A DNA stretch of 22,587 nucleotides from a virus, in the IMG/VR virus record IMGVR_UViG_3300042924_002068, positions 1 to 22,587 of that record. One strand, given 5' to 3'. The notes beneath the pieces were generated by a model. The model ran no database searches and was not told the origin of the DNA. It worked only from the letters and a program-made list of their open reading frames with translations. This document shows, piece after piece, positions 3,002 to 20,640 of this stretch; position 1 is the first letter of the stretch; every line of letters begins with the position of its first letter. Made by a program: the position numbers and the translations under genes.

Positions 3002-5806
3002 TTAAAATTCAACACTTCGTTTTATTCTATTCACTCGTTTCTGTGAATCGCTTATATCTGTCTCTACCACATATGCTTTGATAGGTTGTTGAACTCTATC
3101 TTGTTGAAATACTGCTGATGGTGCTCCTTGTGCGTTTGATGGTGGTAGATCAGGAACTAATTTCTTACCTCCCCCTCTTTCATTTATACTACTTAATAGT
3201 TCAGGATACATCTGTGCTGATCTTGAATTGATTACAAACTCACCCGGTGCTAACATTGAAGGAACTGAATCAATATATCCAGGTCCCATACCCGGTACAA
3301 TACCCCCTTCTGCAGCACTAAATTGTTGATTAGCGATTGCTGCTATTTGAACCGCTGCGAATGCTGCTGCTATTGCCGCATAAATAGGACCTGTTGTTGC
3401 TGGACCAATAATTGGAACAGCAGCACCTGATGAATATGCCGCTAATACCGCTTGTGCTCCTTGAATGGTAGCATTTACAAGTTGTAGTTTTTTCTGTTCG
3501 TTAAATTTCTTTAACGCCAGTTGTTTCTCCTCTTCCGCACGTTGTTGATCCAATTCTTTTACCTTATTATCGTATTGTTCACGAGTAATAAGTTGATTTT
3601 CCAATTGTTCGTCTAACGCCTCTTTTTCCTTATCGTATAAATTATCAATTTGTTTTGATTGAGCCTCAAATCTTTGTTCGTTTCTTTGGGAAATTATATC
3701 CCCTACTTGACCCCATATCTCTGCGATCTTATCAACATACTGACTAATCTTATCAATCGTCTTATTTAACCCTTCTAAAGCGGATTCTTGTGTGTCCTTC
3801 GTCCCATCTATTACTTCCTGAATTTTGGTTTGAGTATCTTGATTAAGTTTTAAGACATCTTGGTTATACTTCTCCTCAATTTCTTTTCTTTGTTCTGCGG
3901 TAAGTTCTTCATTTGATAATTGTTGATCTTTCGCAAGTCGTAATGCTTCCCTTTGACTGACCGCTGATTGTTTAATCAATTCAATTTCTTTATCCGCATA
4001 TTTCTTCTTGACCTCAAGAATAGCCTCTTGTTTCTTTTCTTCGGTCATTACACCATTATTGATCTCTCTAATTTCTTGTTCTTTCTGAAATTCAAGGTCA
4101 AGTAATAGAGTTTGGTCTTGAATTGCTTTGGTTGCGTTAATTGTTATTTCTTCTTGAAGATCATATTTCTCTCTAATATTTTGAATATCTTGATCAAGGT
4201 ATGTTTTCTTTTGTTCCAACAATACCTTTTCAGAGTCAAGTAAATTACCATCAGCCTTTGCTTTAATGGCAGCGATCCCCTTATCATAATCTTCTTGTGA
4301 TTTTCCTTCTTTTTTGAACTTTTCATCAAATGCCTCAATTTCTCTTTGAATAGCACCATCAATAATTTTTTGTCTTTCCTCACCATATTGTTGTTCAAGT
4401 AATTTAACCTCTCTCTCCTCAACATTTTTGATCCTACTTGCTTTGGCTTTCTCAAGTTCTTCTTCTGCTTGAACTTGTCTAGTAATTTCATCCTTAATTT
4501 TTGCTAATAATTCGGCATATTTTTCATTTTCTTCATTAGCATCTTTAGTTGATTCAGTATTTTTATCAGTTTGATCACCATATTTTTTACCATTATCCGT
4601 AACTTCAGCGATTATTGCGGATACATTAGATTCAACTTTACCATACGACATTAACCTTAATTCAGCAGCAACCAATTCAGCCTTATATTGAGCAAGAGCA
4701 TTAGACGCATCTCTAATATCCATTTGAATTTTACCCGCTCTTAAATCATCAGGTAATAATTTTATGTTTTGTAAGTTTTTTAATTCCTTTTGGGTCTTAA
4801 CTATTTTTTGGTTAATCTCATCTTGTTTGACTAAATTCGCTTGGACTAACTTTTCATTCTTTTGAAGTTGGTATTTCGCTTTCTGATAAGCAATATAATT
4901 AGCCACCTCAACATTAAGTTGTTCTTGGAATTTCTTTTCATCAGATAGATTTTTTAGGGTAGTCCCATATTCACCATTTATTTGTTTGATTAAATCTTTT
5001 CTCTCTTTTGAGTTCTTATTGGTTTGTTTTAATCTTGTAATCAATAAAACAAATTCAGCGGATTCACCGGCAATTGTTTCTCTTGCTTTTTGTTCCTCTT
5101 CTCTTTGAGCCTTTAATGTTGCTTGTCTTTGTTTTTGAGCCTTATCCGCTTTATCGCTTGCTGATATGTATTGATATAAACCATACACCAATGTTCCTAT
5201 TGCTGCTGCGATTGCGATGATTGGTAATGCTTTCATAGCCGTACCTAAAGCGGTTGTTGCCACCACACCTTCGGCTGTTGCTACATTTTCTGCGGTTTGA
5301 GCCACTGTTTGTGCTTGTGTGGCACTAACAAGACCCATAAAACCTGCTTTAATTTCCGTAATCTTATCACCCAATCCACCAAATGTTTCAATCGCTTGTG
5401 ATAAATTAAGTAATGCCGAGAATTTAACCAATGTTTTATTCAATTCTTCATTCTCACTACCAAATAAACTTTGTAATGCCATCAATGATTGGAACCCTGC
5501 GACTCCAATTTGAATGGTATTTGATAATGCTCTACCAAAATTCTCCGTAACATTACCCGCCGTAGCGTTAATTACGGCATTTGTATCTTGAATTGTGTCT
5601 CTTAATTGACCTGCTCTTGCTGATAATTCATTAAATCTTGCTGATCCTGGTTCTAAATTCTGTAATTCTTTTGTAATTTGACGTAATTCAGTTTTTAGAT
5701 TGGCGGATATTTGAGATGCGCCATTAATTGATGAGGATAATTTATTAACATTATCCTGTGCTTGTTTTGAATTTACATTGATATTAATATTCGCTGTTTG
5801 AGCCAT
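3002..5806 (-). CDS. Tail tape measure protein
   Basis: At 934 aa this is the length ruler of the tail and may enter the host envelope during DNA ejection. The N-terminus (ININVNSKQAQDNVNKLSSSINGA) starts a long helical region. A hydrophobic segment lies at about 185-213 (LPIIAIAAAIGTLVYGLYQYI) and another at about 778-830 rich in Ala and Ile. Residues about 220-770 are Glu/Lys/Gln-rich coiled coil. From residue 834 comes the typical tape-measure C-terminus: 'GGIVPGMGPGYIDSVPSMLAPGEFVINSRSA'. At the usual rough rule of 1.5 angstrom per residue, a tail near 140 nm is predicted if it is siphovirus-like. Its ATG is preceded by the bipartite element at 5820-5848. It lies about 12.7 kb from the chaperone-like gene, which normally sits next to it. 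Confidence 0.92.
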   Translation of the reverse strand: MAQTANININVNSKQAQDNVNKLSSSINGASQISANLKTELRQITKELQNLEPGSARFNELSARAGQLRDTIQDTNAVINATAGNVTENFGRALSNTIQIGVAGFQSLMALQSLFGSENEELNKTLVKFSALLNLSQAIETFGGLGDKITEIKAGFMGLVSATQAQTVAQTAENVATAEGVVATTALGTAMKALPIIAIAAAIGTLVYGLYQYISASDKADKAQKQRQATLKAQREEEQKARETIAGESAEFVLLITRLKQTNKNSKERKDLIKQINGEYGTTLKNLSDEKKFQEQLNVEVANYIAYQKAKYQLQKNEKLVQANLVKQDEINQKIVKTQKELKNLQNIKLLPDDLRAGKIQMDIRDASNALAQYKAELVAAELRLMSYGKVESNVSAIIAEVTDNGKKYGDQTDKNTESTKDANEENEKYAELLAKIKDEITRQVQAEEELEKAKASRIKNVEEREVKLLEQQYGEERQKIIDGAIQREIEAFDEKFKKEGKSQEDYDKGIAAIKAKADGNLLDSEKVLLEQKKTYLDQDIQNIREKYDLQEEITINATKAIQDQTLLLDLEFQKEQEIREINNGVMTEEKKQEAILEVKKKYADKEIELIKQSAVSQREALRLAKDQQLSNEELTAEQRKEIEEKYNQDVLKLNQDTQTKIQEVIDGTKDTQESALEGLNKTIDKISQYVDKIAEIWGQVGDIISQRNEQRFEAQSKQIDNLYDKEKEALDEQLENQLITREQYDNKVKELDQQRAEEEKQLALKKFNEQKKLQLVNATIQGAQAVLAAYSSGAAVPIIGPATTGPIYAAIAAAFAAVQIAAIANQQFSAAEGGIVPGMGPGYIDSVPSMLAPGEFVINSRSAQMYPELLSSINERGGGKKLVPDLPPSNAQGAPSAVFQQDRVQQPIKAYVVETDISDSQKRVNRIKRSVEF

Positions 5807-6649: not shown

Positions 6650-7879
6650 TTAATATATTTGATAATAATTATTTTGATTTGATTGTATAGTATTTGATTG
6701 AGTTAAACCAACAACACCTGTATTAAAATAAATGACCTCACTTGTTAAACCTACATAATAAAGATTAGGGGCTTCTCTAGTACTTCTTCTATTACCACTT
6801 GCTGCAATACTACTATTTAATCCATTTTTGATATTGTATAGTAGGTTATTGGTCTTATCCCAATTTTGTCCGTTTATTGCTTTATTACCACTTGTTGCTG
6901 ATGTTGTAATTACTCCTGAAGTGAATACGGATGATCCACCAGCTTCCAATACATTACCCCAACTACCAGTAGCGTACGCTCCTAAATAGACATCTAAATT
7001 TTGACCCCATAAAGCATTATCACCAACGGTATAAACTTGAACTCCATTTGGTGCTGTTCCCAAGTTAATTAATGTAGTAAATAATGTATCGTTTGAACCA
7101 TCAAATGATAATGTTGTTCTTGTTGATCCCGTACCAGTTAAAGTTACTAAAGCCCCCGCATTTACAATTTTAGGTTGATTTACAGCAACGCCTTGTGCTA
7201 TATCTAATCCATTTCCTGTTTGATCGTACCAAGTTGTTACAAATCCATTATCGGTTCCTCCTGTTCCAACAAATGATAATAAAGATGCTGTATCAAGATT
7301 TACACCAGTAAATCCAATATCTTGTTCTGTGTTATCGCTACTTCTTCTAACCCTTAAAGCACTTCCACTATATGCGGATCTTAATTTTCTAACTGAAAAC
7401 GCAGCACTTGCACTATAACTATCTAAAATGTAAACTTGAGGACTTGGTGTTATTGTAGGAGTTGGAGTTAATGTTCTTGTAGGTGTTACTGTTGTGGTAA
7501 CAGATGGAGTTGGAGTTACTGTTTTTGTAGGAGTAACACTTGGAGTTATTGTTTGAGTTGGGGTAGGTGTGGGAGTTACAGGTTCAGAATTTATAAACTC
7601 ACCAGCATATGTGTAAAATGTGTTGAAATTATAAATATTTGGGTCACTTGTATTTTGGAAGAACGTATATTGATCCACAATATTTGGGTCAACAGAATTA
7701 TATGACTTAAAAAACTCATAACTATTTGTTCCTAAATGATTGAAGAAGTCATATTGGGATGAACTTACAAATCCATCACTAAATGTTAATCCATTAAAAA
7801 GGTCATATTGATTTGTTGCTCCCGATACCCCACCGATAACTCCCAAATCAGACCAAAAGGTATTCATATTAACTGGCAT
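6650..7879 (-). CDS. Tail appendage with Pro-Thr linker and arabinofuranosidase-B-like lectin domain
   Basis: A 409-aa modular protein. Residues 1-98 contain several 'YDFFN / YEFF / YTFF' aromatic repeats, possibly a docking region. Residues about 100-148 are a TPTPT-type linker. From residue about 151, 'SYSASAAFSVRKLRSAYSGSALRVRRSSDNTEQDIGF ... GFVTTWYDQTGNGLDIAQ ... NQPKIVNAG' matches the pattern of the alpha-L-arabinofuranosidase B catalytic-type domain (concanavalin-like fold), which is frequent in phage tail and Bacteroidota surface proteins. It probably binds, or less likely trims, surface glycans of the host. I cannot confirm catalytic residues. It lies among tail-fibre genes and shares its linker type with two other proteins in the window. 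Confidence 0.7.
   Translation of the reverse strand: MPVNMNTFWSDLGVIGGVSGATNQYDLFNGLTFSDGFVSSSQYDFFNHLGTNSYEFFKSYNSVDPNIVDQYTFFQNTSDPNIYNFNTFYTYAGEFINSEPVTPTPTPTQTITPSVTPTKTVTPTPSVTTTVTPTRTLTPTPTITPSPQVYILDSYSASAAFSVRKLRSAYSGSALRVRRSSDNTEQDIGFTGVNLDTASLLSFVGTGGTDNGFVTTWYDQTGNGLDIAQGVAVNQPKIVNAGALVTLTGTGSTRTTLSFDGSNDTLFTTLINLGTAPNGVQVYTVGDNALWGQNLDVYLGAYATGSWGNVLEAGGSSVFTSGVITTSATSGNKAINGQNWDKTNNLLYNIKNGLNSSIAASGNRRSTREAPNLYYVGLTSEVIYFNTGVVGLTQSNTIQSNQNNYYQIY
7436..7582 (-). repeat. Pro-Thr repeat linker in the 409-aa appendage
   Basis: Residues about 100-148 are built from TPTPT, TPTKT, TPTRT and similar units. On the plus strand this appears as a run of 'gttggagttactgt'-like repeats rich in G and T. 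Such linkers are extended, flexible and usually O-glycosylated in eukaryotes; here they probably just separate two domains. Confidence 0.75.
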
Positions 7880-11069: not shown

Positions 11070-11098
11070 TAAATATTTTAGTTTGATGATTGTTTTTA
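11070..11098 (-). promoter_or_regulatory. Bipartite intergenic element, copy 2 (before collagen-like fibre)
   Basis: On the minus strand, TAAAAACAATC (11098-11088) begins on the TAA stop of the 1195-aa tail gene. It is followed by 11 nt and ATATTTA (11076-11070). The fibre ATG is 11 nt further down. Box 1 differs from the other copies only in its last three bases. Confidence 0.55.
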
Positions 11099-14000
11099 CG
11101 AAGCACAGAAGTAAATTGCTGTACATTCAAGACAATCTCCAATATCAGTTCCCAATAACGTACCAACATATACCGGTGATCCTACTTTTTCCTCAATTAA
11201 TTCATAACATTGACCCCCAATTAACACTAATCTACCTGATAATCCATCAGATGATAAAATAACATAGGTGTCTGGCTCACTACAACAAGATGAAGCCAAG
11301 TACATTATACCTGATGATGGTGTTGGAGTCATTGTTTTTGTTGGTGTTGGACGTGGTGTTGATCCAATTGATGTGGTTACAGTAGGTGTTACAGTAGGAG
11401 TTAAAGTATTTGTAGGGGTTACAGTATTTGTAGGGGTTACTGTAGGTGTAGATGTTGTTGTTGGTGTGGATGTTATTGTTGGAGTAGGGGTTGGACTTAA
11501 TCCTGGTGTAGGAGTAGGGGTTGGTGTCGGTGTTTCTGTAGGAGTAGGACTTGGATCAATTGGTGTAGGAGGTTGTTGTTCGCTACCATCAATGATTGGT
11601 CTTAATTTACTATCCCCACCATAATTTCTTACAGATTGATATGTACCATCTATGATATCAATTAGATTTGTTTTACCAACATACATAACGGTTTCATAAC
11701 CCGCTTCTGTGATCGTTGGATAGTACCATCTAAACCCGTCAGAATTCAATACAAGGTTCCCTACAACGATTGTATCGCTCTCAATAGAGTTATGATCGTT
11801 TCCAATAATTAAAGCGTTTCTCGTGTTCTCATTTACAGAGTTTCCATCACCCATTACAAGTACATTTTCAGCACTTGAATCTACGAAGTTGGAACTACCT
11901 TTTACGACAACAGTATTTGAGTTGATAATGTTTTGATTTTTATTCATCTCAAATGGTCTGTTCTCCCCTATCGCTCCAACTCTTGCTTGAAATGATGGAG
12001 CAATAGCACCTCCTGATTGTGGGTATCCCGTTTGAATCCCCCAAGGCTCAAAAGGATTATTGATAATTGGTTTCTTCGCTTGACAATATCCATTGGTCCA
12101 ATACCCACCCCACAATAAACAACAATCTTCTGTGATTACTTGGTTAGATGGGGATACGAATATCCAACCATATTTAGTTTTCTTAATATAAACATCATCA
12201 GGACAATCAATTTCCGATGAAGGAACATCACTATTGTCGTTATAGAAGATGTCCAACTCATTTAATTTATACAAAACAACCTTGGTTGTTCTATCAATAG
12301 CGTTTGGATTGTAATCCTCAATTCTATTTACCCTCCAATAAGCATTATCAATCAAAATAATGTCTCTAAAATCAAATGTATTTAGATCACTTGGAGTTAA
12401 ATGGAAATAGGCTTCCAATAACTTGGCATTAACATCAGTAAGATCGTTCAATGTAGACAGATAAAACTGATTTATTAGGTTATTACTTGGACAACATAAC
12501 GCTGTATTGTAATATAATCTTGTAGAGTCCCCCCATTCTAATGAATATTCAGGATTTGTTGGGTCATCATACATACCAGCGTGAACATATGTAAACGACG
12601 AAGATATTGAACTCGTTGGAGTATCTCTAATTCTAATATCGTTAAATAGTCCTTGACTTTGTGTTATTTTTTTAACAAATAGAATACGAGGTTTTACTTT
12701 GAATGGTCTTAAATTTGAATTCGTATCTATATCAGCAAAGAATGGACCAATATATGGGGTCATAAAATTATCTGATACTGGCGTTGGAGCAATATCTAAT
12801 TTTATTTCTTTTACAGTCGTTGAGAAATCATTGATAAAATCAACATAAAAATCACCATATACTCTACCAGATTGTTCTGTGTAAGTTTTATTATAGTAGT
12901 CATTATCTTCGGCGTACGTAAATACATATGATTTAACATCCAATTCACTCATTGGAGTTTGTTTTACATCTTGATCATAATCCAATTTATGTGTCCAATC
13001 ACGAACTAATTGTTTTGATTCGTAGAAATCATCCTTCGGTTCAATGATGAGGTTATTAGGTAGAGCAGGATCATCACTTACAACCAAGTTAAACATCTTC
13101 ACCACATTGATAAAAAGGTCTTTCATCTTGATTGCCGGCAACATTGAAGATAAATTTAATAATGCGTTGATATTATAATTTATATTTGTTGCTGGTTTAA
13201 CCTGTATTCTGTTTGGAGTACCCCCTTTTGTTGTTGGATATGTTACTGCGGCAACCAATACTCTATCAGTATTTGATTGCCATTGAACTGATGTTGGGTA
13301 ATTCATACTAAATTGTACTCTAATTTCATCACCAACATTTAACCATACTGAACCAATATTCATATTCATTACATATTCTTGATCGGACAACCACCAACCT
13401 GGCATATAACCTGTTGATGGAACTGTGGTATTACCAAACGCACTCCTACCTGTTGAGTTGGCTAATGGTGGGGTAATTGTTAAGTTATTAGTTGTGACTA
13501 ATACTGTTGTTGAACCATTGGCTGCTACTTTATAAACTCTAGCATTGTATGTAATTGATCCTGATAAATACTTAAATGAAGATCCTTGTTCGTGTCTATA
13601 ATACATTTGGAATGCTTGATCCACATCTATTTCATAGAAACCTGCTGTTGAGGCTTTATATCTTGATAAGTTATTTGGTGTTCCCAAATATATCCATTCG
13701 TTATTTGGATCCTGATATTGTTGATTAGATATAATAGATGTCTCATCACTATATGGAACATACCAAGAACCATTTGTATTATTTTGCCACCAATTATTTG
13801 ATTTTTGTAACATTGGACTCATAGCAGTAACCCCACATAAAAGACATTGTGGTGATAATGGTGATCCAAAATAGTATGATTGTAATCCATTATTTAATGG
13901 TGGTGCCATTACCCAAACAAAAGAGGTTACTGGTTTAACCCCCACTCTTACAGTTCTATCAAAAATACTTTGACTATCATAGGTTGGGGTTTCAGTGGGC

Positions 14001-14683
14001 ATAACTAATGCCTTAAAATAATCTGAATTAAAGAAATTGGATGTATAGGTATATCCCGCCCATTGGAACATTTTATCCATCAATGTCTTCAAATACACAG
14101 CAGGGTTTAAGTCAAACGCATTAAAAGTCCTATTTGATACTGAATTAGCCCCATTTACAATAATTGGATAGATATACCCCGTACCTGGTGATACAAGTGT
14201 GCTCTGCCCAAATACTGTAATTATATTATCATATGATAATTGAATTGTGGCAACATTACGATAGTGGTCGTATTCGTCCAAATTTAACTGATCTAAATAA
14301 TAATCACCAAAAGCAACCATTATATTTTTGAATAAACCTGTTACTACAATCTCATATTCCACCAATTTTTGGTTGGTAATGATATTAAGTAATTGTAGAT
14401 TTCCGTAAAATACTAACTCATCCCCAATCAATACTTGAACTGGTAGTGATTTCTTTGGGTTAAATGAACTTTCAGATATATCAATATTGATCTCAAATAT
14501 ATTTTGGAAGAATGAATTGTTATTTGGTGTACCTGGTAATAGGATAGTTTTGGAAAATGATGCTCTCTTGGAACCAATATCTTCAATATCATCTATCTGA
14601 TACGTCAATGAAATATCAAAATCATCGTATGTATCCAATTGCCTACCTTGTGATATAATCTTAAATTGATTAATTGCTGCCAT
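11096..14683 (-). CDS. Large tail-tip/baseplate protein with beta-helical repeats, Pro-Thr stalk and Cys-rich tip
   Basis: This 1195-aa protein is modular. The N-terminus (KIISQGRQLDTYDDFDISLTYQIDDIEDIGSKRASFSKTILLPGTPNNNSFFQNIFEIN) resembles tail-tip hub proteins of Bacteroidota phages. Residues about 100-900 are mixed beta. Residues about 923-976 hold three roughly 16-residue repeats (NTVVVKGSSNFV, NVLVMGDGNSV, NALIIGNDHNSI), suggesting a trimeric beta-roll or helix. Residues 1036-1125 are a Pro-Thr stalk. Residues 1126-1195 are a Cys-rich tip (SSCC, GQCYELIE, DCLECT, YFCAS). It probably forms the tail tip and displays a small adhesion module. It starts on the base where the upstream 651-aa gene stops (14683), showing translational coupling. 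An alternative is a Tal-like hub without protease activity. Confidence 0.65.
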   Translation of the reverse strand: MAAINQFKIISQGRQLDTYDDFDISLTYQIDDIEDIGSKRASFSKTILLPGTPNNNSFFQNIFEINIDISESSFNPKKSLPVQVLIGDELVFYGNLQLLNIITNQKLVEYEIVVTGLFKNIMVAFGDYYLDQLNLDEYDHYRNVATIQLSYDNIITVFGQSTLVSPGTGYIYPIIVNGANSVSNRTFNAFDLNPAVYLKTLMDKMFQWAGYTYTSNFFNSDYFKALVMPTETPTYDSQSIFDRTVRVGVKPVTSFVWVMAPPLNNGLQSYYFGSPLSPQCLLCGVTAMSPMLQKSNNWWQNNTNGSWYVPYSDETSIISNQQYQDPNNEWIYLGTPNNLSRYKASTAGFYEIDVDQAFQMYYRHEQGSSFKYLSGSITYNARVYKVAANGSTTVLVTTNNLTITPPLANSTGRSAFGNTTVPSTGYMPGWWLSDQEYVMNMNIGSVWLNVGDEIRVQFSMNYPTSVQWQSNTDRVLVAAVTYPTTKGGTPNRIQVKPATNINYNINALLNLSSMLPAIKMKDLFINVVKMFNLVVSDDPALPNNLIIEPKDDFYESKQLVRDWTHKLDYDQDVKQTPMSELDVKSYVFTYAEDNDYYNKTYTEQSGRVYGDFYVDFINDFSTTVKEIKLDIAPTPVSDNFMTPYIGPFFADIDTNSNLRPFKVKPRILFVKKITQSQGLFNDIRIRDTPTSSISSSFTYVHAGMYDDPTNPEYSLEWGDSTRLYYNTALCCPSNNLINQFYLSTLNDLTDVNAKLLEAYFHLTPSDLNTFDFRDIILIDNAYWRVNRIEDYNPNAIDRTTKVVLYKLNELDIFYNDNSDVPSSEIDCPDDVYIKKTKYGWIFVSPSNQVITEDCCLLWGGYWTNGYCQAKKPIINNPFEPWGIQTGYPQSGGAIAPSFQARVGAIGENRPFEMNKNQNIINSNTVVVKGSSNFVDSSAENVLVMGDGNSVNENTRNALIIGNDHNSIESDTIVVGNLVLNSDGFRWYYPTITEAGYETVMYVGKTNLIDIIDGTYQSVRNYGGDSKLRPIIDGSEQQPPTPIDPSPTPTETPTPTPTPTPGLSPTPTPTITSTPTTTSTPTVTPTNTVTPTNTLTPTVTPTVTTSIGSTPRPTPTKTMTPTPSSGIMYLASSCCSEPDTYVILSSDGLSGRLVLIGGQCYELIEEKVGSPVYVGTLLGTDIGDCLECTAIYFCAS
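11309..11578 (-). repeat. Pro-Thr repeat stalk in the 1195-aa tail protein
   Basis: About 90 residues of TPTPT, TPTNT and TPTVT units, the longest of three such linkers in the window. It contains the block 'PTPTPGLSPTPTPT', which has a close match in the 280-aa protein, also at the DNA level (around 11494-11517 versus 17662-17685). Confidence 0.8.
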
Positions 14684-16681: not shown

Positions 16682-17191
16682 TCCCCCCTTATCAAATTTA
16701 ATTTGAGCCGCTTTGTAGTTATTCTCCAACATCTTAACGATATTATCTACCATTCTCTGTTCGTAAATCCTATTAGCGTTCCTTGAGGTCTGTATGATGT
16801 TGATTGTCTTCCTAACTACATTGGTTGGTTTGATCCCAAACTTATGAATATTCTTTTGTGCTCCATATGCTGCTCCTTCAGGTAATCCTTTTACTCTAGC
16901 CCATCTTAACAATGGTCCGATTGGGGGATATTTCGCCCCCGCTCTTCTCCCCTGATCCACATACTTTAAGTAATCCTCACTCAATAATTGAACTTGAATA
17001 CCTTGAGCCGTTGGTTGTAATCTATAATTGATTGATCTAATTAACCTACCTGTCGCCACCTTTGGATATGACCTTAAACCAGGTCTTGATGGTACGGTAT
17101 TATTCCTCAATAAGCCTACAAGGATCTTAACATAATCCTTCCCAAATTGATTGGCTAATTTAGTATCAAAGAATAACATTTGATTAGCCAT
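16679..17191 (-). CDS. Neck / head-tail joining protein, HK97 gp10-like
   Basis: This 170-aa basic protein would cap or join the tail to the head connector. Residues 47-54 (TGRLIRSI), 74-85 (YLKYVDQGRRAG) and 88-102 (YPPIGPLLRWARVKG) match the 'TG.L..SI ... Y..fvd.GR..G ... PPi..i..Wa..KG' signature of HK97 gp10-like tail-completion proteins. Residues about 110-130 (GAQKNIHKFGIKPTNVVRKTI) match the 'a..I...Gi.P...l..ai' ending. Its ATG overlaps the last 8 nt of the small coiled-coil gene upstream, so translation is coupled. It is next to the tail-terminator-like gene, the normal neighbour for this family, though both lie far from the head genes here. Confidence 0.78.
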   Translation of the reverse strand: MANQMLFFDTKLANQFGKDYVKILVGLLRNNTVPSRPGLRSYPKVATGRLIRSINYRLQPTAQGIQVQLLSEDYLKYVDQGRRAGAKYPPIGPLLRWARVKGLPEGAAYGAQKNIHKFGIKPTNVVRKTINIIQTSRNANRIYEQRMVDNIVKMLENNYKAAQIKFDKGG

Positions 17192-17375
17192 TATTTAATT
17201 GTTTTTTTAACAAATTAAGTTGTCTCTCCAAGTCCATTATTTTCAAATCTCTCTCCAATAATTTCTTTTGTGAGATCAAATCTTCCATTTCTTGTTGAAT
17301 TGGTTGAGGTTCTTTCTGTGCTGTTTTTGTGTCGTTGTGGATGGTCACCCCATCTCTTACTATTCTTATTCCCAT
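17184..17375 (-). CDS. Small coiled-coil hypothetical protein
   Basis: A 63-aa protein, MGIRIVRDGVTIHNDTKTAQ..., with a helical, heptad-like C-terminal half (about residues 28-60, EMEDLISQKKLLERDLKIMDLERQLNLLKKQL). It is not recognised as a named family. The frame is supported by an ATG start 20 nt after the stop of the tail-terminator-like gene, by the 8-nt coupled overlap with the neck gene, and by normal amino acid composition. A competing frame over the same bases needs a GTG start inside the upstream gene and has a less protein-like composition. It may be a minor connector or assembly factor. Confidence 0.6.
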   Translation of the reverse strand: MGIRIVRDGVTIHNDTKTAQKEPQPIQQEMEDLISQKKLLERDLKIMDLERQLNLLKKQLNNG

Positions 17376-17395
17376 ATATATTTAATTTAATTTTA

Positions 17396-18238
17396 TTAAC
17401 AAGTTCCACCAATTTCTAAACCTCCATTTGCTGTGAAATATTTTGGCGATCCTGATGATTGTGATAAAACAATCCATCCAAAAAATTGATTAGTTAAAGA
17501 AGAATTAGTCCATAATGTTTGACCTTGATTGACCGTTGGTATTGGTTGTGATGAATATACTGTTAATTGAGTAGTTGAAACACAAACAGTATTTATACCT
17601 CCACTATAAACCAAAGCACTAAATAAAGTTTGTGTTGAAGTAGGTGTAGGAGTAGGTGTTTGACTTAATCCTGGTGTTGGAGTAGGAGTTAATGTTGGTG
17701 TAATACTTGGTGTAGGAGTTGGGGTAGGTGTATCAAAGTAAGGATTTTCAGGTATGATACAGTTCACTTGTTTTAATTTTAATATAATTCTCGCTACAAC
17801 CCCCGTCGCTTTATCCGTTGTCTCATCAACAGCGGGATAGAATGTTACGTCTTGTGAGATGAATGCCCCATATTGTTGCCAGTTTTGAGCCACATCTGTT
17901 AATAAATCCTGAAGAACCTGTAACATATCACTCAATATCTCTTGTGAGTTGTCTGATGGGAAACCATTAACATCCAAATAATTCTCTTGGATATTGATCT
18001 TATCCATAAACATAATGGAAAACGATAATTCAGGTATAGCCGTCTTGTTATGAACCGCTTGACCAATGGTATTATCCTCATTCATCATCACCCACATATA
18101 GGGGAAATTCATTTGACGGGATGTTCCAATGTCGTAAGGTTCCCCAAATCCGAAATCATTCAAAAAATAGTTATTCTGTTGGAACAATTGGAACCATTTA
18201 ATTATCTGATTTAATGTTATTACATTTGTTATTGCCAT
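17396..18238 (-). CDS. Tail-terminator-like protein with Pro-Thr linker and C-terminal add-on domain
   Basis: A 280-aa protein. Residues 1-163 (ITLNQIIKWFQLFQQNNYFLNDFGFGEPYDIGTSRQMNFPYMWVMM ... LSFSIMFMDK ... SQEILSDMLQVLQDLLTDV ... VNCIIP) resemble tail-completion/terminator proteins of Bacteroidota phages: helix, 'FG.GE', 'yP.mwv', 'sDmlqvl.Dl' and a closing 'C.IP'. Residues about 170-203 are a TPTPT linker. Residues about 204-280 are a small domain with two Cys (VCVSTTQLTVYSS ... GQTLWTNSSLTNQFFGWIVL ... GLEIGGTC), a type I recall as an appended module in flavobacterial proteins. The ATG overlaps the stop of the frameshift extension by one base. A tail terminator carrying a displayed add-on domain is unusual. 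Confidence 0.62.
   Translation of the reverse strand: MAITNVITLNQIIKWFQLFQQNNYFLNDFGFGEPYDIGTSRQMNFPYMWVMMNEDNTIGQAVHNKTAIPELSFSIMFMDKINIQENYLDVNGFPSDNSQEILSDMLQVLQDLLTDVAQNWQQYGAFISQDVTFYPAVDETTDKATGVVARIILKLKQVNCIIPENPYFDTPTPTPTPSITPTLTPTPTPGLSQTPTPTPTSTQTLFSALVYSGGINTVCVSTTQLTVYSSQPIPTVNQGQTLWTNSSLTNQFFGWIVLSQSSGSPKYFTANGGLEIGGTC
17630..17731 (-). repeat. Pro-Thr repeat linker in the 280-aa protein
   Basis: About 34 residues of TPTPT units including 'PTPTPGLSQTPTPTPT'. The DNA around 'gacttaatcctggtgt' (from 17662) matches the stalk of the 1195-aa gene (from 11494) almost base for base, pointing to past recombination or copying between the two linkers. Confidence 0.75.
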
Positions 18239-18504
18239 TATACTGCGTTTTTATTCTTTAATTCTTCTTTATTCTTAAAATACCCCAACCAATTCAGACA
18301 ATGAACATAAGCCATCTCATATACCTCATCCTCCTTTAATCGTAATTTATCCATCAATGTGAATACAAAGTCCAACCATACATATCGGTCGTCCATTTTC
18401 TTCTTATCCCCCAACTTCTTCTTAAACCTATCATTATCGGTTGTTACTTCTCGTTGTTTTTGGAAGAGACCCTCGTATTGTTGGGTTATAAATCTCTTCC
18501 AGTT
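18238..18504 (-). CDS. -1 frameshift extension of the tail assembly chaperone (gpGT-like part)
   Basis: After the slippery site the -1 frame is open for 88 codons and ends with TAA at 18238-18240. It reads NWKRFITQQYEGLFQKQ ... KMDDRYVWLDFVFTLMDKLRLKEDEVYEMAYVHCLNWLGYFKNKEEL. It is helical and charged, with the 'VYEMAYVHCLNWLGYFK' pattern recalled from long-form chaperones of Bacteroidota phages. No in-frame start occurs before the ATG at codon 37, so the bulk of the extension is best reached by frameshift. The fusion would be 178 + 88 = 266 aa. It fills the otherwise gene-free stretch of about 250 nt before the tail-terminator-like gene and overlaps that gene's ATG by one base (TAATG). Confidence 0.75.
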   Translation of the reverse strand, partial: NWKRFITQQYEGLFQKQREVTTDNDRFKKKLGDKKKMDDRYVWLDFVFTLMDKLRLKEDEVYEMAYVHCLNWLGYFKNKEELKNKNAV

Positions 18505-18514
18505 AAAAAAAAAC
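18461..18514 (-). promoter_or_regulatory. -1 programmed ribosomal frameshift signal (slippery heptamer plus hairpin)
   Basis: On the minus strand the codons are AGT TTT TTT TTA ACT, giving the canonical heptamer U UUU UUA (18510-18504). Two nucleotides later a perfect 9-bp stem begins: TGGAAGAGA (18501-18493) pairs with TCTCTTCCA (18469-18461). Inside it CCC (18485-18483) can pair with GGG (18472-18470). Pairing begins closer than the usual 5-9 nt spacer, so the lowest pairs may be open during slippage. Confidence 0.78.
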
Positions 18515-19037
18515 TGAAGATGTGGTTAATATCACTGATCTTTATTTTCCTAAACTTCTCATCACGAGCCATAAAACTCGTATTATACTTCTCTAAACTA
18601 CCATCTTCTTTCTTCTTACGTAGAAATACACATAATAATTTACTCATTACCTTCTTTATATCCCCTCCCGCTGACTGAATGATTGTCTCAATGGAAATAA
18701 CCTCACCAGCGGTGTATTTATTAAACTCTGAATAGAGGAAATATTCTTCCCCATCCACAATAATTGACTCTTTCTTTAGTTCCTCAATCGGTTCATAAAC
18801 AAAAGCCAGTGACTTAACTAACTCTTTGAAGTCATTGTAGTCAATCTGTTCTATAATCTCTCTATCAATCCCTGATAATTGGTGGATCAATTCAAATGAA
18901 TAGAACATTCCTTCGTGAACACTCGTATCAATTGAGTAGATATTAGTGAATTGTTCTATCGTAACCTCACTCCAATCACTTGGAAATTCGTAATCTTTTA
19001 CTTCTTCGTTGTCTACTTGTACGCTAATCTGTATCAT
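18486..19037 (-). CDS. Putative tail assembly chaperone, short form (gpG-like)
   Basis: This protein is 183 aa from the ATG at 19037. A longer frame reaches a TTG at 19070, but that start is weak and would cover part of the conserved leader. The zero frame ends shortly after the slippery run with '...HIFSFFLTGRDL'. Residues include 'YEFPSDWSEVTIEQFTNIYSID', 'LIHQLSGIDREIIEQIDYNDFKELVKSLAFVYEPIEEL' and 'LCVFLRKKKEDGSLEKYNTSF', a helical acidic protein in the style of phage tail assembly chaperones. In lambda the G/GT pair recruits tail tube protein onto the tape measure. Position directly after TerL, and not next to the tape measure, is unusual. The call rests on the frameshift architecture more than on sequence identity. 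Confidence 0.65.
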   Translation of the reverse strand: MIQISVQVDNEEVKDYEFPSDWSEVTIEQFTNIYSIDTSVHEGMFYSFELIHQLSGIDREIIEQIDYNDFKELVKSLAFVYEPIEELKKESIIVDGEEYFLYSEFNKYTAGEVISIETIIQSAGGDIKKVMSKLLCVFLRKKKEDGSLEKYNTSFMARDEKFRKIKISDINHIFSFFLTGRDL

Positions 19038-19055
19038 AATTCTCTTTATTAAAAA

Positions 19056-19084
19056 TAAATATCTCCACAAGGGAAATGTTTTTA
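19056..19084 (-). promoter_or_regulatory. Bipartite intergenic element, copy 4 (before chaperone-like gene)
   Basis: On the minus strand, TAAAAACATTT (19084-19074) begins on the TAA stop of TerL. It is followed by 11 nt and ATATTTA (19062-19056); the chosen ATG at 19037 is 18 nt further down. The element supports 19037 over the TTG at 19070 as the start. Confidence 0.58.
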
Positions 19085-20269
19085 CACATTCATAAATCCT
19101 ACGAATGGTCTATTACCTCCTTCTTTTCTAACCCCCAATTTGGACATCGCCACATATCTTAAAGCATCGCAGGCGTGGTTATGAGCATCAATGGGGGTTG
19201 TATCATATCCACCATTTCTATCCTTCTTCCACATATACTTCTGAAACTCACTTATGATATTCTGTGATGTATTGGTTACAAACATCTTTTTCTGTTGGAG
19301 TATCTGTATCCCGTAGTTCACACTATCCTTACCCTTCTCAACTGATTTAACTTGATGTCCGTATCGTTTTAACTCGTGAATGGATTTGGGTTCAGCACTA
19401 TCAGCGTAGATCTCTCCTTTGACGTTATTCTGTTTCATAATGGAAGATAGTTCTGAATTTAATAATCCTGTCTGATATACAATCTCGTCCACAATAATAT
19501 CATCGTTGTATTTGTATAGAGCCACCAAAGCAGCAGGATCATAACTATATCCAAAGTCCAATCCATATCCAAGTAATCTAGCCTCTTCAGGGATCTTATC
19601 TATGATCTCATAGTCATTGAAGATTGTCCCCTCCACTTGTCCTATCTCACCATCAAGATATACTCTACACCAGTTGTCCCAATATGTTGATGTAGCCGCT
19701 TTGACTCTATTACTCTCCAACATCTTCACAACCTCATCCGGTAAAGCCTGATTGTCTTTATAGTTGAGGACAATGAAATCTGTATTGGGTTGATTTATAA
19801 CCTCTGTATGGACCCAAAACCTCGCTGATGGATTGTAGTCAAGATATATATCCCCACTTGTACGGATCGCTAATTGTAGGTAAGCGTCGTAGTTGATTGA
19901 ATTACACTCATTGATGTATAGTATCTGTCTTCTACCCCCACGTAGTTTCTCTTCACTATCAGCGGAGAAAAACTCTATGTAAGACCCATTTGTAAATTCG
20001 TATCGTAAGAGTGTTTTATTATAGTTGGAAGGAATATACCTACCTGTCTCCTTCATAATCTTTAAGAAGTCCTTAACACAGCCCCTACGGAGATGCGGTA
20101 TTGATTCTGAAACTATGGAAACCTCAAGACCAGGTTCTTTAATACACTTATCTATCAACAGGATTAGAATACTGATTGTCTTTCCCGCTGATGAACCCCC
20201 CTGTATTACCTTAATTCTATTGTTAAGGGATCTGATTTTCTTTAAGGCTGTCGTTTGTTTATAATTCAT
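19082..20269 (-). CDS. terL: Terminase large subunit (PBSX / Terminase_3 type)
   Basis: This 395-aa ATP-driven packaging motor cuts concatemers and fills proheads. The N-terminal ATPase has Walker A GGSSAGKT (residues 24-31) and Walker B QILYINE with Glu121. The C-terminal RNase H-like nuclease shows Asp238 in 'GYGLDFGYSYDPAA', Asp290 in 'IYADSAEPKSIHEL' and Asp361/Asp368 in 'IDAHNHACDALRY', the expected acidic triad. Length is normal for the compact PBSX-like group. Its ATG overlaps the TerS stop by four bases (ATGA), so the two subunits are translationally coupled. The next gene downstream begins 44 nt later after a copy of the bipartite element. I see no intein or truncation. Confidence 0.95.
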   Translation of the reverse strand: MNYKQTTALKKIRSLNNRIKVIQGGSSAGKTISILILLIDKCIKEPGLEVSIVSESIPHLRRGCVKDFLKIMKETGRYIPSNYNKTLLRYEFTNGSYIEFFSADSEEKLRGGRRQILYINECNSINYDAYLQLAIRTSGDIYLDYNPSARFWVHTEVINQPNTDFIVLNYKDNQALPDEVVKMLESNRVKAATSTYWDNWCRVYLDGEIGQVEGTIFNDYEIIDKIPEEARLLGYGLDFGYSYDPAALVALYKYNDDIIVDEIVYQTGLLNSELSSIMKQNNVKGEIYADSAEPKSIHELKRYGHQVKSVEKGKDSVNYGIQILQQKKMFVTNTSQNIISEFQKYMWKKDRNGGYDTTPIDAHNHACDALRYVAMSKLGVRKEGGNRPFVGFMNV

Positions 20270-20640
20270 TCATCATCATCAGGGAGTAATGGTTGTTCCT
20301 GTATTGAAATCTCTTGTCTTGTTGGAGCGTCAAATCCACTCATCTTTGAAATAAGTTCTATCGCCTTCATAGCGGTCGCATCTCTTACTCCCTTATTGTT
20401 ATTTTTTATATCTACCAAATCATTCAGGAGTTCTTCCTTGGTTATATTAAGACGCTGTGCTGTCTTTTCTCCCTCTTGTTGGAGGTATTCTTTTATTCTA
20501 ACATTTTCCATCAATCTTGGTCCACTAGCTCCCGCTACTTTATCACTGACCTTATAGATAGTTTTGTATGCTTGTGTAGCGTTTAGACCATTGGCTAAAT
20601 ACTCATCACAGAACGCTTTGTGTTTCGCTGATAAACTCAT
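20266..20640 (-). CDS. terS: Terminase small subunit (Terminase_2 type)
   Basis: A 124-aa DNA-recognition subunit of the packaging machine. 'LSAKHKAFCDEYLANGLNATQAYKTIY...SDKVAGASGPRLMENVRIKEYL' (residues 3-53) is the helix-turn-helix region of the Terminase_2 family (pattern: k...F..eYl..g.NatqAy..a........g...l.....v...l). A helical oligomerisation segment follows (TAQRLNITKEELLNDLVDI), then an acidic C-terminus LLPDDDE that probably contacts TerL. It overlaps the methyltransferase stop and the TerL start by four bases each (ATGA), giving a tight packaging operon. Confidence 0.9.
   Translation of the reverse strand: MSLSAKHKAFCDEYLANGLNATQAYKTIYKVSDKVAGASGPRLMENVRIKEYLQQEGEKTAQRLNITKEELLNDLVDIKNNNKGVRDATAMKAIELISKMSGFDAPTRQEISIQEQPLLPDDDE

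Follow-up and report, generated by a model that had tools for sequence, protein, structure and literature searches.

A probable lambda G/GT-like gene with a programmed -1 frameshift beside the terminase gene in a group of environmental phages

The locus considered here raises the question of whether two reading frames that meet at a run of nine T's are joined by a programmed -1 frameshift and, if so, at which site and to what product. The window, that is, the whole stretch of DNA that was analyzed, comprises 22,587 nucleotides (positions 1 to 22,587 of virus record IMGVR_UViG_3300042924_002068). A preliminary description of this DNA had proposed that a tail-chaperone-like protein is fused there to an extension of 88 residues. 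The elements on which the proposal was built, namely the 0-frame ORF, the nine-T run, the in-frame U UUU UUA heptamer (18510-18504), the open -1 frame, the 9-bp stem with a nested 3-bp pair (18501-18461), and the TAATG overlap with the next gene, are all present, but T_TTT_TTT at 18513-18507 is in frame as well, and the extension counts 89 codons from TTT 18507 rather than 88. The features of the locus are as follows.

18486-19037, minus strand: 0-frame ORF, from ATG at 19037 to the stop at 18488-18486, 183 aa; chaperone-like ("G"-like), judged from relatives and a fold model
18505-18513, minus strand: run of nine T's (T9), then A at 18504, with two overlapping in-frame slip heptamers inside
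18507-18513, minus strand: conserved slip heptamer T_TTT_TTT, identified from aligned slip regions and tree counts
18504-18510, minus strand: heptamer T_TTT_TTA, whose codon TTA becomes TTG, TCN, ATA or TAT among relatives
18502-18506, minus strand: 5-nt spacer TTAAC between T_TTT_TTT and the stem
18493-18501, minus strand: 5' arm of the 9-bp stem, TGGAAGAGA
18461-18469, minus strand: 3' arm of the 9-bp stem, TCTCTTCCA
18485-18483 with 18472-18470, minus strand: nested 3-bp CCC/GGG pair in the hairpin
18238-18507, minus strand: -1 frame extension, 89 codons and a stop, from TTT 18507; under purifying selection
17396-18238, minus strand: next gene, with its ATG in the TAATG overlap
19082-20269, minus strand: terminase large subunit (TerL), directly upstream of the frameshift gene (PF17288, 5.1e-17)
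3002-5806, minus strand: tape-measure protein (phrog_9959, 7.9e-11); the frameshift gene lies about 12 kb upstream of it

The product of the -1 frame reads FNWKRFITQQYEGLF...KNKNAV over its 89 codons, and the last base of its stop TAA (18240-18238) is the first base of the ATG of the next ORF. The predicted fusion product therefore has 266 aa (177 + 89 residues). The open frames of relatives of the next gene are very unequal in length (162-854 aa), and Pro-Thr repeat stretches are found in three different window genes, namely this one and those at 11096-14683 and 6650-7879.

The layout was compared among relatives collected with either half of the gene. The 0-frame product as a query in IMG/VR gave 27 relatives, in all of which the phase of the T run is kept and the -1 frame is open. 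With the -1 extension as a query, the best 80 of 89 loci were taken; a scan with a 0-frame profile (best 80 of 108 relatives) supplied 27 loci that were new to the extension-found set, and 6 further loci were taken from a later scan (best 80 of 98 relatives). Genome contigs were also scanned, with no matches for query L025 and with one Sulfurovum MAG contig for query A3. The 80 + 27 loci, the window, locus L036, the Sulfurovum contig, and the cultured Nonlabens phage P12024S make up 111 places with 88 distinct slip regions. Clustering of the 0-frame product at 80% identity gave 48 clusters from 107 of these places, the other 4 having a 0-frame part that is too short or without ATG. The tree contains 45 of the 48 clusters, 3 being left out.

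Taken by itself, the window is compatible with a miscount of the nine-T run, an assembly or sequencing error that would make one continuous gene appear as two frames, and homopolymers are error-prone. In all 111 places, however, P12024S among them, the upstream ORF and the extension are offset by one base, in the direction for which a -1 shift is required, and the layout in the 6 further loci agrees. The bases that flank the runs differ between loci, which means that the runs do not all go back to a single copied error, and the 0-frame tails are unequal in length, every one ending in a stop. A relative with one continuous frame, which the preliminary description had named as counterevidence, was looked for and found neither among the 111 places nor among the 6 further loci. 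Since the fold library contains two proteins, A0A516L5A8 and A0A6J7WJY4, that resemble both halves and could be natural fusions in one frame, this absence is limited to the loci examined. Some hundred contigs, together with a cultured phage, thus exclude the miscount, the probability of which we regard as practically nil, and the -1 part evolves as a protein. In the 27 loci that were chosen by their 0-frame part, the extension is whole in 24; it is broken at codon 69 in L122 and runs to the contig end in L033 and L168. One 34-kb contig (IMGVR_UViG_3300028571_000063) carries two similar, non-identical TerL-frameshift gene regions about 28 kb apart (L113 and L130), from either a mixed assembly or two related phages.

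Both parts of the gene are under protein-coding selection. For the non-overlapping part of the extension, dN/dS is 0.00-0.22 in 24 pairs, several of which are near-duplicates, and changes at the three codon positions of the -1 frame number 133, 69 and 359. An alternative is that the extension is made as a separate protein, by coupled or internal initiation within the 0-frame gene or close to it. In P12024S, a 55-aa ORF with an ATG of its own is annotated at the end of the extension, and several viral proteins in the fold list of the extension have 47-68 aa, with weak E-values. In 45 of the 48 clusters, however, there is no ATG, GTG or TTG in the extension frame up to residue 10, so the extension is not easily started alone. 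Its residues are conserved from the first one on, and a separate start would leave T_TTT_TTT without explanation. We consider a separate start very improbable, and a shift from the 0 frame into the extension is the reading followed below.

The next question is where the shift would occur. The preliminary description had placed it at T_TTT_TTA (18510-18504) and had proposed that conservation of the heptamer be sought in related phages. An in-frame heptamer is indeed kept, and it is T_TTT_TTT, one codon upstream, which is found at the aligned position in 84 of the 88 distinct slip regions; the remaining 4 include one A_AAT_TTT, one heptamer shifted by 6 nt, and two regions without a heptamer. 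At the level of clusters, T_TTT_TTT is aligned in 45 of 48 (L125 after a one-codon register correction). It lies 6 nt upstream of the aligned position in L103, and the canonical A_AAT_TTT takes its place in L096. The cluster of L090-L094 alone is without a canonical heptamer, having T5 and the sequence TAT/CAT TTT TCA while keeping both frames; its slip site may be non-standard, or one may have been missed.

The codons on either side of T_TTT_TTT show which unit is kept. The preceding codon encodes nine different residues across the clusters. At least 25 changes on the tree fall on the first two bases of this codon, as against two on the third, which is the X of the heptamer; the exceptions to T are L090 and L096. 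The naive chance of T being kept throughout at this position is 1e-18, a figure that ignores relatedness. The codon that follows T_TTT_TTT has 7 states, with at least 18 changes on the tree. Because the codon TTA is often replaced while the upstream T stays, the unit held by selection is, as judged from these alignments, T_TTT_TTT and not T_TTT_TTA, and the latter was rejected as the slip site.

A run of this length could also be slipped on by RNA polymerase, which would add a U on T9, so that part of the mRNAs, with ten U's, would be read into the extension; this could act jointly with ribosomal slippage. According to a passage in PMC5009743, bacterial RNA polymerase slips on stretches of 9 As or Ts. 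The slip regions have T9 or T10 in 79 of 88 cases (T9 in 70, T10 in 9, T8 in 5, T7 in 1 and T5 in 3), and T runs of at least 9 occur only twice elsewhere on this strand across the 48 representative loci, which comprise 384,632 nt. However, the T8, T7 and T5 regions keep both frames, and this variable run length therefore favors ribosomal over transcriptional slippage. In addition, A_AAT_TTT stands at this place in L096, the preceding codon retains its last T as the X of a heptamer would be retained, the hairpins described below start at a ribosomal spacer distance, and T9 is also expected from T_TTT_TTT and its neighboring codons. Transcriptional slippage thus has a small probability in our estimation; ribosomal slippage appears to be well ahead, with the polymerase as a possible contributor.

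With the ribosomal slip placed at T_TTT_TTT (18513-18507), the spacer to the stem is 5 nt and not 2. The range for 3' structures given in a passage of PMC5009743 is 5-9 nt, inside which the spacer of the window falls. The stem to which the preliminary description had drawn attention is real, but the spacer is not unusually short. The 76 nt at 18515-18440 fold with an MFE of -14.9 kcal/mol (z -2.26), and 3 of 200 shuffles fold as well. Fold tests covered 46 clusters, 2 of the 48 being out for lack of sequence. The 60 nt starting 3 nt past the heptamer are in the lowest 5% of same-gene windows in 14 of the 46 clusters and in the lowest 10% in 18. Stems that start exactly 5 nt past the heptamer reach the top 5% in 14/46 clusters at 80% identity and in 7/33 at 60%; when compared with TGG sites, the corresponding counts are 12/46 and 6/33. 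The stem signal at 60% clustering is modest.

These stems differ between clades. In the window clade, 92.6% of cells of the stem are paired in 12 sequences; no changes on both sides were seen in 9 pairs, the stem runs over conserved codons, and many relatives lack it. In another clade (L111, L117, L125, L133, L141 and L095), TGGCGGG pairs with a 3' arm about 40 nt further on. Here, 3 of 7 pairs have changes on both sides, and the covariation in 12 sequences, three of which lack that 3' arm, is 0.290 as against 0.137 in shuffles, none of 500 shuffles being as high, although the shuffles ignore relatedness. Both stems start 5 nt past the heptamer, with different 3' arms, and in many clusters, including P12024S, no stem was found. 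Because the clades differ in their stems and many clusters are without one, hairpins seem, on this comparison, to be optional and replaced in places. The hairpin was accordingly rejected as a conserved general stimulator; the conservation of the stem that the preliminary description had proposed to look for in related phages extends to the window clade, the stem being absent or different in others.

A Shine-Dalgarno-like stimulator was also considered and rejected, there being no Shine-Dalgarno-like 4-mer 5-20 nt upstream in any of the 48 clusters as against 152 of 1245 control windows. The motif is likewise found in 0 of 22 window genes. An Rfam search gave no matches.

The identity of the protein was approached through profiles, folds and gene order. 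PF10109 (Phage_TAC_7) matches 8 of 15 members (best 0.017) and 4 of 19 (best 2.2e-4); the window protein itself scores 15.6 bits, below the gathering score of 25, over residues 47-78 only. The "tail protein" family phrog_166 matches 6 of 19 members (best 2.2e-4), and phrog_8595, a "tail assembly chaperone", matches one (0.0036). The fold model of the 0-frame product has a mean pLDDT of 84.5. With an E-value cutoff of 0.001, Foldseek against BFVD gave 40 matches, almost all without a name; one is a "Tail assembly chaperone protein" (7.5e-4), and among 357 PDB chains compared by VIA, the HK97 tail assembly chaperone came out on top, weakly (Z 3.2, 72 residues at 4.2 A). The PDB gave no match under 0.001 to the 0-frame model by Foldseek and a best E of 0.46 by profile, and VIA matches of the extension were unrelated (best Z 3.3). 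The phage records had no match to the DNA of 17000-20300, to the 0-frame protein, or to the distant extension L105, an absence that is uninformative.

A tail chaperone gene usually lies just upstream of the tape-measure gene, which is a position and not a functional definition; by function, chaperones of the G/GT kind bind the tape measure and the tail tube and are not part of the virion. In 16 contigs searched, a homologue of the window's next gene follows the extension in every case, and TerL is strongly matched in 11, weakly in 4, and not recognized in 1. A tape-measure match was obtained in 13 of the 16, adjacent to the frameshift gene in none of these 13; in the 8 contigs that are not opened between the two genes, the tape measure is about 8-13 kb downstream. 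The weak TerL matches belong to G006, G010, G012 and G014 (L036, L113, L120 and L150), where TerL has 27-28% identity with that of the window over part of its length. Because the frameshift and next genes remain homologous there, the terminase seems, on sequence grounds, to have been exchanged in these four.

Considering the weak sequence and fold matches together with the architecture, we take the frameshift gene to be likely a tail assembly chaperone. The label that the preliminary description had given thus fits the matches to PF10109, phrog_166 and BFVD and the G/GT architecture, but not the usual position, the gene being beside TerL and not beside the tape measure. This position, the weakness of the family and fold matches, and an annotated Flavobacterium phage chaperone that cannot be aligned with it (see below) would suit a real frameshift in some other head or tail factor that is made in two forms. 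Against such a factor stand the presence of PF10109, phrog_166 and phrog_8595 among the named phage matches, the fold match to a named chaperone, and the G/GT architecture itself; we regard it as unlikely, though with an appreciable probability, and retain the tail assembly chaperone as the preferred identity.

The closest relatives of the window TerL are in Flavobacterium phages (best 52% identity), and because of these relatives and of P12024S, the hosts are presumably Bacteroidota. The same frameshift gene is found at L106 (CACVAR010000201.1), a contig binned as Sulfurovum (Campylobacterota), which represents either another host group or a binning error.

Altogether, the conserved heptamer, the two frames at 111 places, and the coding selection support a programmed -1 frameshift that fuses a chaperone-like protein to an extension, and we consider it probable that the gene uses a programmed -1 ribosomal frameshift in the manner of lambda G/GT. 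The majority of ribosomes would read 19037-18486 and produce the 183-aa tail-chaperone-like protein. In a minority, tRNA-Phe in the P and A sites on T_TTT_TTT would slip back by one base, and these ribosomes would read the -1 frame to 18238, giving the fusion protein. In the window clade, ribosomes are probably stalled by the hairpin 5 nt past the heptamer, so that the shift becomes more frequent. If the two products work as gpG and gpGT do, the short form would cover the tape-measure protein, and tail-tube subunits would be brought in by the extension. We infer that the slip is ribosomal rather than transcriptional, and likewise the frameshift efficiency, the tail-chaperone function, and the roles of the two forms.

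A broader reading is that T_TTT_TTT was kept while the hairpin disappeared repeatedly or was formed anew, with a non-homologous 3' arm but an unchanged 5-nt spacing, and without Shine-Dalgarno help, in a chaperone pair that stands beside the terminase and away from the tape measure. We hold this tentatively, stopping just short of calling it probable; if true, it would provide a natural experiment in the birth and replacement of frameshift stimulators. The 48 clusters also offer a comparative set for what a -1 frameshift needs, the heptamer being near-constant and the hairpin not, and a gene model for the fusion protein is supplied.

Several known systems can be compared with this gene. PF10109 covers tail assembly chaperones E, 41 or 14, to which the likeness is a weak profile match, with the window member below the gathering score; P2 gpE shifts at TTTTTTG. 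The chaperone of Flavobacterium phage FPSV-S2 (QCW20388.1) is annotated as such and lies directly upstream of the tape measure; it differs in being one frame of 250 aa, which is alignable with neither half. In Flavobacterium phage 6H (L108, record 10927-10352, minus strand), a fold relative has T_TTT_TTC and an extension-like -1 ORF, with a TAG just after TTTTTTC and before that ORF. In RAP44, Harreka_1 and BS-TP2, which were fetched by TerL, a portal gene follows TerL, and in P12002L a hypothetical gene does.

Lambda gpG/gpGT resembles the window gene in having a 0-frame protein with a -1 C-terminal extension. The window group differs in its conserved T_TTT_TTT, in the place of the gene at TerL, and in the distance of the tape measure (about 8-13 kb), and its sequence similarity to named chaperones is marginal. 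Xu et al. 2004 reportedly dealt with -1 frameshifts of the G/GT kind in tailed phages. Frameshifts of this kind are widespread in tailed phages despite low sequence similarity, as stated in a passage of PMC5009743. We found no report of one in this environmental phage group in open-licence papers, and the present gene would thus extend the G/GT frameshift to a little-described group.

The nearest cultured counterpart is that of P12024S (JQ823122), where ORF38 (23136-23663) comes right after TerL. Its slip region reads ATA CTT TTT TTT TAT, with T_TTT_TTT in frame at 23579-23585, and the -1 frame takes in the annotated ORF39, reaching 23830. ORF38 matches the family profile with an E-value of 2.9e-5, and the extension matches weakly (0.043). 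P12024S differs from the window in that the two parts are annotated as hypothetical proteins, in the weak match of the extension, and in the absence of a detected hairpin, but shares with it the position after TerL, T9, T_TTT_TTT and the -1 extension. This cultured phage makes the frameshift directly testable: the predicted tryptic peptide ends in ...SSCILFFYHLGNDLGIYTQNSTPPQADSK in the 0 frame and in ...SSCILFFLSFR in the fusion.
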